The position numbers were made by a program, and so were the translations under genes. From assembly GCA_029976075.1 (NCBI GenBank), contig JARKNW010000012.1, positions 62,001-126,000 on the forward strand: a DNA stretch of 64,000 nucleotides, given 5' to 3'. A model generated the notes under the pieces. It saw nothing but the letters and a program-made list of their open reading frames with translations. It did no database searches and was not told where the DNA came from. This document shows, in pieces, positions 31,173 through 60,958 of the stretch; the first letter of the stretch is position 1, and each line of letters starts with the position of its first letter. This DNA is from Pleomorphomonas sp. GTDB lineage: Bacteria; Pseudomonadota; Alphaproteobacteria; Rhizobiales; Pleomorphomonadaceae.

Positions 31173-32888
31173 TCAAAACAGGAAATACCGTTGCGCCATG
31201 GGCAGCACATCGGCTGGAGCACAGGTCAGCAGCTCGCCGTCGGCCCGCACCTCATAGGTTTCCGGATCGACTTCGATCACCGGCGTCGCCGAATTATGGA
31301 TCAGTGATGCCTTGGAAATGCCGCCGCGCGTGTTCTCGACCGGCAGCACGACACGGTCGAGACCAAGCTTCTCCTTGATGCCATTCTCATAGGCATAGCG
31401 GGAAACGAAGGTGACCGACGAACGGGTCATCGCCTTGCCGAAGGCGCCGAACATCGGTCGATAATGCACCGGCTGCGGCGTCGGGATCGAGGCGTTTGGG
31501 TCGCCCATGGCGGCGGCGGCGATGGTCCCCATCTTCAGCACCAGATCCGGCTTCACGCCGAAGAAGGCCGGCGTCCACAAGACGAGGTCGGCGAGCTTGC
31601 CGACTTCCACCGAGCCGACATGCTTGGAGAGTCCCTGGGCGATGGCCGGGTTGATCGTCACCTTGGCGATGTAGCGCTTGACGCGGAAGTTGTCGGCATC
31701 GGTGCCGACGTCCTCGGGCAGAGCGCCGCGCTGTACCTTCATCTTGTGCGCGGTTTGGAAGGTACGGATGATCACCTCGCCAATCCGGCCCATGGCCTGG
31801 CTGTCGGAGGAAATGATCGAGAATGCGCCCATGTCGTGCAGGATGTCTTCCGCCGCGATGGTCTCCTTGCGGATGCGGCTCTCGGCGAAGGCGACATCTT
31901 CGGGGATCGAGCCATCGAGGTGATGGCAGACCATCAGCATATCGAGGTGCTCGTCGAGCGTGTTGCGCGTGTAGGGCCGCGTCGGATTGGTCGACGACGG
32001 CAGCACGTTGGAGAGGCCCGCTACCTTGATGATGTCGGGCGCGTGGCCGCCACCGGCGCCCTCGGTGTGGTAGGCGTGGATGGTGCGCCCCTTGAAGGCG
32101 GCGATCGTGTCCTCGACGAAGCCGCTTTCGTTGAGCGTGTCGGTATGGATCATCACCTGCACGTCGTAGTCGTCGGCAACGGCAAGGCAGTTGTCGATGG
32201 CAGCCGGCGTGGTACCCCAGTCCTCGTGCAGCTTCAGGCCGCATGCGCCGGCCTTCACCTGCTCGATCAGAGCCGCCGGCAGCGATGCGTTGCCCTTGCC
32301 TGAGAAGGCAAGGTTCATCGGCAGTCCCTCGGCCGCCTCGATCATCCGTTCAAGGTGCCAGGGGCCTGGCGTACAGGTGGTGGCCGCAGTGCCGGTGGCC
32401 GGCCCCGTGCCGCCGCCCAGCATTGTGGTGATGCCGGCATAGAGTGCCTCGTCTACCTGCTGCGGGCAGATGAAATGGATGTGGGTGTCGAGCGCGCCGG
32501 CGGTCAGGATCTTGCCTTCGCCAGCGATCGCCTCGGTGCCGGGCCCGACGACGATGGTGACCCCGGGCTGCACATCCGGATTGCCGGCCTTGCCGATGCC
32601 GGAAATGCGGCCATCGGTGATGCCGACATCGGCCTTGTAGATGCCGGAGTGATCGATGATCAGCGCGTTGGTGATGACGGTATCGACCGCCCCTTCGGCC
32701 CGGCTCGCCTGGCTCTGGCCCATGCCGTCGCGGATGACCTTGCCGCCGCCGAATTTCACCTCTTCGCCGTAGATGGTGAAATCCTTCTCCACCTTCACGA
32801 ACAGCTCGGTATCGGCAAGGCGCACCTTGTCGCCAACGGTGGGACCGAACATGTCGGCATAGGCGGCGCGGGACATGCGGTAGGGCAT
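31173..32888 (-). CDS. ureC: Urease subunit alpha
   Basis: The 571-residue catalytic subunit of urease. Nickel ligands are His136 and His138 ([11 protein letters not shown]), the carbamylated Lys219 (GLKLHEDWG), His248, His274 ([15 protein letters not shown]) and Asp362 (SSDSQAMGR). The flap Cys321 and catalytic His322 are in [12 protein letters not shown]. All needed residues are present and the length is normal, so the enzyme should be active once the accessory proteins load nickel. GGAG lies upstream of the ATG. ureB lies 87 bases upstream. Confidence 0.98.
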
Positions 32889-60636: not shown

Positions 60637-60665
60637 TTGACCAGCCTTGCCCTTTCGGCCATAAA
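60637..60665 (+). promoter_or_regulatory. Putative asd leader promoter
   Basis: TTGACC (60637-60642), 17 bases, CATAAA (60660-60665). Transcription would start near 60672, about 20 bases before the leader ORF and about 285 bases before asd. Confidence 0.55.
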
Positions 60666-60692
60666 GCCGAGCATTCGAGAGAGGAATGGTCC

Positions 60693-60797
60693 ATGTCGTT
60701 CGCGAATGGTGCCCGTCAGGCAATGATCGCGCTGGGTTTCACCCCGGCGGAAGTTGCCATGACGAAAACGGCGACGACGAAAACGACCACGACGTGA
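60693..60797 (+). CDS. Thr/Lys-rich leader peptide upstream of asd (putative attenuator)
   Basis: A 34-codon ORF whose last 12 residues read MTKTATTKTTTT: after the Met, eight Thr (seven ACG, one ACC), two Lys and one Ala in 11 codons, then TGA. GAGAGGA lies seven bases before the ATG at 60693; an internal ATG at 60759 with GGAAG upstream would give just the 12-residue tail. Thr and Lys are both made from aspartate semialdehyde, the product of the gene 161 bases downstream. Classic attenuators (thr, trp, his, ilv) have such end-product codon runs before exclusive hairpins. No protein function is expected beyond ribosome stalling. Inferred from sequence; expression is unproven. Confidence 0.6.
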   Translation: MSFANGARQAMIALGFTPAEVAMTKTATTKTTTT

Positions 60798-60818
60798 TCG
60801 ACGCTTCCTCGCCCCGCA

Positions 60819-60860
60819 CCGTCCTCCTCGGGGTTAGAGGAGGCGGAAGGTGGCCTCCTC
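60819..60860 (+). promoter_or_regulatory. Mutually exclusive hairpins in the asd leader
   Basis: Segment 1 CCTCCTC (60823-60829) pairs with segment 2 GAGGAGG (60837-60843), extendable by CCG/CGG with one bulge. Segment 2 GAGGAGGC (60837-60844) can instead pair with segment 3 GCCTCCTC (60853-60860) with an eight-base loop. Only one can form. Segment 3 also overlaps GGTGGCC (60849-60855), complementary to GGCCGCC (60892-60898), which can itself fold with GGCGG (60905-60909). No clear U-run follows, so any termination may be rho-dependent, or the control may act on translation. Confidence 0.5.
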
Positions 60861-60958
60861 GAACGTCTCCCTGACAGACTGAAGAGCGACCGGCCGCCAG
60901 ACAAGGCGGGGGACGACTTTTACGGCGCAAAGCCACACTTTCAGAAGGTCAGTCCAAC

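Follow-up and report, generated by a model that had tools for sequence, protein, structure and literature searches.

In Pleomorphomonas sp. a short open reading frame rich in threonine and lysine codons ends upstream of asd, a gene that feeds the synthesis of lysine, threonine, methionine and the diaminopimelate of the cell wall. Is this frame the leader of an attenuator, and if so, which amino acids would it sense, and how might it act on the gene? In the thr leader of Escherichia coli and in the his, trp and ilv attenuators, a run of codons for the end product is combined with alternative hairpins set by the position of the ribosome and with an intrinsic terminator. We have analyzed the asd locus in a stretch of 64,000 nucleotides (contig JARKNW010000012.1, positions 62,001 to 126,000; hereafter the window), together with asd upstream regions from related bacteria. 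The leader and a switchable hairpin that follows it probably tune threonine and lysine synthesis to supply.

The leader locus

The original prediction described a promoter-like TTGACC-N17-CATAAA, followed by a 34-codon frame with a ribosome binding site (RBS) that ends 161 nt before asd and has a tail of eight threonine codons, two lysine codons and one alanine codon. Reading of the sequence confirms all of these elements (Table 1), the 161 nt lying between the leader stop and the asd ATG. The 34 amino acid product is MSFANGARQAMIALGFTPAEVAMTKTATTKTTTT, and its C terminus reads TKTATTKTTTT (tail MTKTATTKTTTT). Transcription would be expected to start at about 60672.

Table 1. Features of the asd leader region, in coordinates of the window
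Feature	Positions	Strand	Basis
asd leader promoter, TTGACC (60637-60642), 17-nt spacer, CATAAA (60660-60665)	60637..60665	+	genus-level alignment; predicted
Leader ORF RBS, GAGAGGA	60679..60685	+	sequence; GAGAGG seen in 14 genus-level loci
Leader ORF, 34 codons (ATG at 60693) and stop (TGA, 60795-60797); Thr/Lys run, codons 24-34	60693..60797	+	sequence; tail in 20/20 family loci
H1 hairpin (ZfZ with XB), 15 bp, 12-nt loop	60802..60845	+	folding; own-versus-cross pairing, 46 representatives
Segment A, pyrimidine-rich, within the H1 loop, can pair with B or C	60820..60827	+	own-versus-cross pairing, 46 representatives
Segment B, which forms the 3' arm of H1 and can pair with ZfZ or A	60837..60845	+	pairing tests, constrained folding
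M hairpin region (CCGCC/GGCGG)	60886..60909	+	M pairings covary across families; window form read from sequence
Segment C, complementary to A; ACTTTTA follows it in the window	60905..60915	+	pairing tests, genus alignment
asd RBS, AGAAGG	60943..60948	+	sequence; identical in 12/14 genus-level loci
asd, aspartate-semialdehyde dehydrogenase, 343 aa	60959..61990	+	S. meliloti homologue so annotated, 81% identical

Alignment of 14 genus-level loci, the window included, reveals a conserved block that starts at CTTGAC and spans CATA.AG, the leader RBS and the start codon. CTTGAC and CATA are kept in all 14 loci, and the sequence further upstream is not conserved. Within the frame conservation fades in the middle of the peptide, and the Thr/Lys run and the bases just after it are nearly invariant. 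A promoter scanner, whose rule wants a T at the end of the second hexamer, returned no site for the leader promoter. A search of the 5.36-Mb assembly for the codon pattern ACN-ACN-AAR-(ACN)4-TRA gives a single occurrence, and the reversed control pattern gives none. Upstream of homoserine dehydrogenase in the same genome, inspection by eye revealed no Thr leader.

No Rfam family (the lysine riboswitch, Thr_leader, the asd RNA and others) matches the locus at the gathering threshold. At E ≤ 5 the locus gives two microRNA models only, both below threshold and on the opposite strand. Elsewhere in the window, positions 32449-32733 (+ strand) match RF02514 (5' ureB sRNA) above threshold, with 91.6 bits; we suspect that this is a urease gene and not the sRNA.

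Occurrence of the leader among relatives

Upstream regions were found by way of asd itself. The gene was matched in all 20 genomes of the family, our own included, in 119 of 121 genomes of an order-level sample (30 loci taken, four of them already included, and 60 more), and in 88 of 96 genomes of a class-level sample (30 loci taken); the best 80 asd loci of a named genome collection were also used. A leader was scored where threonine and lysine together (T+K) account for at least seven of the last 15 codons of a frame that ends 50–250 nt before asd.

Such a leader is present in 83 of 176 distinct upstream sequences; among the controls, 3 of 880 block-shuffled sequences and none of 176 antisense sequences qualify. 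(Before removal of four order-level sequences identical to loci of the named collection the corresponding counts were 84/180, 5/900 and 0/180.) All 20 family loci have the conserved Thr/Lys codon run that the original prediction proposed to look for in relatives, as do 63 of the 156 other distinct asd loci. By source, with duplicates still included, the leader occurs in 45 of 85 order-level loci and 19 of 75 loci of the named collection. On sequence comparison, the Thr/Lys leader before asd is real and widespread in the order Hyphomicrobiales, and it is partly anticipated in print (see below).

Fifty-five named loci fall below even a T+K of six, and these are mostly from Bradyrhizobium. Rhodopseudomonas, Xanthobacter, Ancylobacter, Pseudolabrys and methylotrophs are among the other loci below that value, and the Methylobacterium locus examined has no such leader. 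A leader with codons for two end products is found in many families, but not in the Bradyrhizobium loci examined. Several leader-negative Bradyrhizobium loci (L088, L131, L132 and others) share a frame ending HGPTLS at −81 before asd, possibly another conserved upstream feature.

Beyond the order, 2 of the 28 best-matching class-level loci (L203 and L224) have a Thr/Lys leader. That of L224 ends 123 nt before asd and is followed by AAAAGGCCCGC...GCGGGCCTTTT, which has the shape of a textbook terminator.

Codon usage in the leader tails

For the analysis of codons and RNA structure we took 69 loci with at least five threonine codons and a T+K of at least six in the last 12 codons, in a frame that ends 60–240 nt before asd, identical regions having been removed. 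Omission of near-duplicates left 48 representatives. In these, threonine makes up 54% and lysine 17% of the last 12 codons, compared with 9% and 3% of the preceding 22. At least one lysine codon lies within the last 12 in 68 of the 69 loci.

The comparison also reveals a pronounced codon bias. Lysine in the tails of the 48 representatives is encoded by AAA 78 times and AAG 20 times (98 codons), and in the asd genes of the same loci by AAA 108 times and AAG 1007 times (1115 codons), so that AAA is enriched in the tails with an odds ratio of 36 (p about 1e-51). ACG is over-used relative to ACC in the same tails. Over the last four codons of 19 family loci, threonine is kept through synonymous ACG, ACC and ACT, with one lysine at one place.

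AAA is decoded by the UUU isoacceptor of tRNA-Lys only, and this exclusive reading might sharpen the sensing of starvation. In our genome 45 tRNA genes were found, and among the 30 loci examined both tRNA-Lys(UUU) and tRNA-Lys(CUU) are present, together with tRNA-Thr species GGU, CGU (two) and UGU.

RNA pairing downstream of the leader

Pairing was assessed by calculating the duplex energy of each species' own segments and of segments combined across species, with row and column centring. The tests used 46 species, corresponding to the 48 representatives without L152 and L159, which have aberrant long loops.

The stretch after the leader stop (ZfZ) and that after the loop (XB) form the hairpin H1, for which the own energy is −23.4 kcal/mol compared with −18.7 kcal/mol for cross-species combinations (z = −10.4), and the own partner is better in 98% of the species. 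The second strongest pairing between segments is A:C (z = −7.5, own better in 91%), and A:B gives z = −4.0, with own better in 78%. All three pairings are still significant in 27 loci below 75% identity and in nine below 70%. The original prediction had also suggested a search for covarying stems, and these three answer to that description. Within the genus A:C exhibits a compensatory difference, CGTCCTCC with GGGGGACG in L003 and CGTTCTCC with GGGGAACG in L010; there is one mismatch in L012.

H1 can form in all 46 representatives, with a median of 15 bp and a minimum of 11, and in each of them it begins 3–7 nt past the first base of the leader stop. In 40 of the 46, no more than one codon separates the last threonine codon from the stop.

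In a sliding survey of 406 window pairs the top ranks, leaving aside overlapping windows, were Z:X, an M pairing, ZfZ:B (twice), A:B, A:C and a second M pairing; z for all pairs has a spread of 1.7, with a positive tail to 3.6. Both M pairings show covariation between families (z = −7.3 and −5.2), and the M hairpin is taken as constitutive in our model. ZfZ:B and A:B both covary, and as judged by this comparison they are mutually exclusive structures.

Other combinations gave no such signal. ZfZ with the C/RBS region exhibits no covariation in the 46 representatives (whole-segment z = −0.3, −0.3 and −0.1 in three versions), nor in stricter identity sets (z = 0.9 and −1.5), and single-window tests, whose X:C row is unusable owing to undefined duplex energies, reached at most z = −2.2 (Z:C) and −1.6 (Zf:SD). 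A with the RBS region had the wrong sign in the same 46. RNAalifold gave zero pairs on a MAFFT alignment of 26 hand-chosen members of the 48 representatives. A covariance model built from three seeds (R1) gave 16 matches at E ≤ 1 over 87 sources, of which 12 are at the expected place, i.e., the three seeds and nine further loci, and the other four are misplaced. A rerun on 12 sources gave 13 matches, two of them on the opposite strand.

A second pyrimidine segment, GCCTCCTCGAAC (window 60853-60864), offers segment B another partner, and the adjacent CGTCTCCC (60864-60871) can pair with C. These pairings give a further alternative fold, with ACTTTT after C.

Ribosome position and the choice of fold

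Folding was calculated with the RNA made unavailable for pairing as far as 10 nt beyond the codon in the A site. With no ribosome H1 exceeds A:B in 23 of the 46 species. For a ribosome whose A site holds the 11th codon ahead of the stop, close to the first threonine codon, the count is 19; it declines to 17 for the sixth codon before the stop, to 7 for the second and to 2 for the last, and with the stop itself in the A site a single species remains. In the window H1 retains about 13.9 expected pairs until the ribosome is at the last codon, when it falls to 2.0 and A:B rises to 4.3. The position of the ribosome is thus predicted to set H1 against A:B, the flip from one to the other being a computed one.

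Chimeras were constructed in silico with ZfZ of a foreign species. With the ribosome upstream these form less H1 than the native RNA (3.3 compared with 5.5 expected pairs), and at the last codon the dominance of A:B is the same as in the native RNA. Because the A:B dominance is equally seen in the chimeras, only the H1 side is sequence-specific in this folding.

A proposed model for the control of asd

The reading that we prefer is a ribosome-position switch on the asd leader RNA that would sense charged tRNA-Thr and tRNA-Lys, with the starved state forming H1 and turning asd on. We consider the chances that this is correct to be evenly balanced. On shortage of threonine or lysine the ribosome would stall within the Thr/Lys run, leaving the RNA after the stop free to form H1. 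Segment A would then lie in the H1 loop, from which it could also form a pseudoknot with C, and the RBS of asd would remain usable, allowing the gene to be expressed. With an ample supply of both amino acids the ribosome would reach the last codon or the stop and cover the foot of H1. B would pair with A instead, and the freed pyrimidine-rich ZfZ could pair with the purine-rich C/RBS region, lowering the translation of asd. We prefer this classical wiring because H1 can still form when the ribosome stalls earlier than the last one or two codons, and is lost on termination.

Would the switch act at a terminator or at the asd RBS? Control of the initiation of translation seems the likelier output. 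With each state imposed, the asd RBS is harder to open in the A:B state than with H1 formed, by more than 0.5 kcal/mol, in 29 of 48 loci and easier to open in 9, in a test that forbids ZfZ:C/RBS pairing in the H1 state and so partly builds in its result. The window has the opposite sign (6.9 kcal/mol in the H1 state, 5.2 in the A:B state).

Two simpler forms of RBS control were considered. In nested folding of 48 loci with ribosome footprints and no forced states, access to the RBS did not change consistently as the ribosome was moved, and on this result we rejected a simple nested fold as the means of sequestering the asd RBS. Direct pairing of ZfZ with the RBS, for which no covariation was found, is kept as a conjectural step of the model.

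A fuller version of the preferred reading is offered tentatively, as a possibility that we rate below even. In it the branch-point gene asd of the Hyphomicrobiales would be under a terminator-less attenuator whose crossing pairings, H1 with the A:C pseudoknot as opposed to A:B, read the position of the ribosome on the Thr/AAA-Lys run, so that a single leader would combine the signals of two end products and be tuned to tRNA-Lys(UUU).

Alternative explanations

The leader RNA might set premature termination of transcription, either weakly intrinsic or Rho-dependent, and not the translation of asd. Most known amino-acid leaders act by transcription attenuation. Part of the genus has ACTTTT or ACTTTTT after C, three loci with Brucella names (L078, L083 and L119) have a hairpin followed by TTTTT, and L224, outside the order, has the terminator described above. 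Against this, 51 of 69 loci have no TTTT anywhere from the leader stop to asd (18 have one, and 6 have runs of five T), and TTTT lies within 14 nt after C in only 2 of 48. An intrinsic terminator scan of the + strand of the window stretch gave none. We regard this explanation as rather unlikely. The absence of a conserved U-tract terminator means that the element is not a textbook thr/his/trp attenuator, and the classic terminator model was rejected on this ground. The attenuator-like character ascribed to the leader in the original prediction therefore holds as regards the Thr/Lys run, the promoter core and the covarying stems, but not as regards the thr/his/trp type.

A serious rival, albeit an improbable one, has the opposite wiring. 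H1 with the A:C pseudoknot would be the off state, blocking the entry of ribosomes at asd, and dwelling of the leader ribosome on the last threonine codons would melt H1, bring about A:B and turn asd on, in the manner of ermC. The strength of A:C would be accounted for, and most representatives have C a short distance 5' of the asd RBS (median 21.5 nt to the ATG), although in the window the distance is 46 nt. The calculated loss of H1 with a ribosome at the last codon is also in keeping with this wiring, and a ribosome stalled on the last threonine codon would overlap the foot of H1 in 42–44 of the 46 species if it protects 13–15 nt from the A site. However, the calculation gives the same effect for a ribosome at the stop, so that plentiful amino acids would also switch asd on, and stalls at earlier threonine codons leave H1 largely intact.

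It is very improbable that the RNA binds a ligand or protein, with the upstream frame merely providing translation through it and the Thr/Lys bias serving RNA composition. To our eye H1 and A:C resemble the expression platform of a riboswitch, and the AAA and ACG codons keep the run A-rich; yet threonine is kept through the synonymous changes noted above, and also in families with a different RNA, and no Rfam family matches at the locus. Finally, a chance repeat, or a functional small protein with no role in attenuation, as the short and repetitive frame with its variable mid-peptide might suggest, is extremely improbable, given the near-empty shuffled and antisense controls, the conservation of just the Thr/Lys tail beside asd, and a codon pattern unique in the genome.

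Relation to known systems

The asd leader is like the thr, his, trp and ilv attenuators in having a run of end-product codons and, by sequence comparison, mutually exclusive RNA structures. It differs from them in lacking a conserved intrinsic terminator, in the gene, asd, and in that lysine joins threonine. In translation attenuation of the ermC type, four segments exchange their pairing, the output is at the downstream RBS and the signal is an antibiotic. The asd leader would likewise exchange pairings among four segments, with a proposed output at the downstream RBS, but its signal would be uncharged tRNA, and the pairings 1:3 and 2:4 cross, making a pseudoknot possible.

If the preferred reading is true, a single leader reading two end products would allow the influence of codon choice and tRNA isoacceptors on attenuation to be tested in a natural setting, and a switch that works with no terminator would broaden what genome scans for attenuators should seek.

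Among alphaproteobacterial leaders, uORFC-8-2 of the Rhodobacterales (PMC8632094) similarly carries end-product codons, but these are for cysteine and precede cysS; the main text of that paper, in the form available, contains neither "asd" nor "semialdehyde". The accessible portions of PMC5584792, PMC7143759, PMC8632094 and PMC1273637 do not name an asd leader element.

The original prediction knew of no such described element, which was too strong a statement. As described in the available part of Hadjeras et al. (2023; PMC10117765), SEP5 of Sinorhizobium meliloti is an upstream frame in the 5' UTR of an "aspartate dehydrogenase" gene, with six threonine and three lysine codons near its 3' end, and is termed "possibly a leader peptide". 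Its translation was demonstrated there by Ribo-seq and by Western blotting of a tagged fusion under another promoter, and in the sources consulted translation of a Thr/Lys leader frame is reported solely for this S. meliloti homologue. The asd leader of S. meliloti (L256) ends KTTAKTTTKTV, with six threonine and three lysine residues, and fits the printed description, so that SEP5 is very probably the asd leader element. The leader of the window has eight threonine and two lysine codons. Among the matches listed, in which few subscription papers were covered, we noticed no description of an alphaproteobacterial asd leader besides SEP5.

SEP5 makes the element not wholly new; the wide spread, the AAA bias and the predicted terminator-less switching RNA are new relative to print. 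The available part of PMC10117765 describes no RNA switch for SEP5, and regards it as conserved only in Sinorhizobium. We find the leader also in Shinella, Rhizobium and many further loci of the Hyphomicrobiales. The Shinella and Rhizobium loci and a second Sinorhizobium locus have tails closely like that of S. meliloti, and share with it the A segment CTCTCTCCCC and the C segment GGAGAGA downstream. The S. meliloti locus was taken from a plasmid collection, where asd is carried by CP090106.1, a 3.7-Mb record titled plasmid pSymB that, to judge by its size, may be a mislabelled chromosome.
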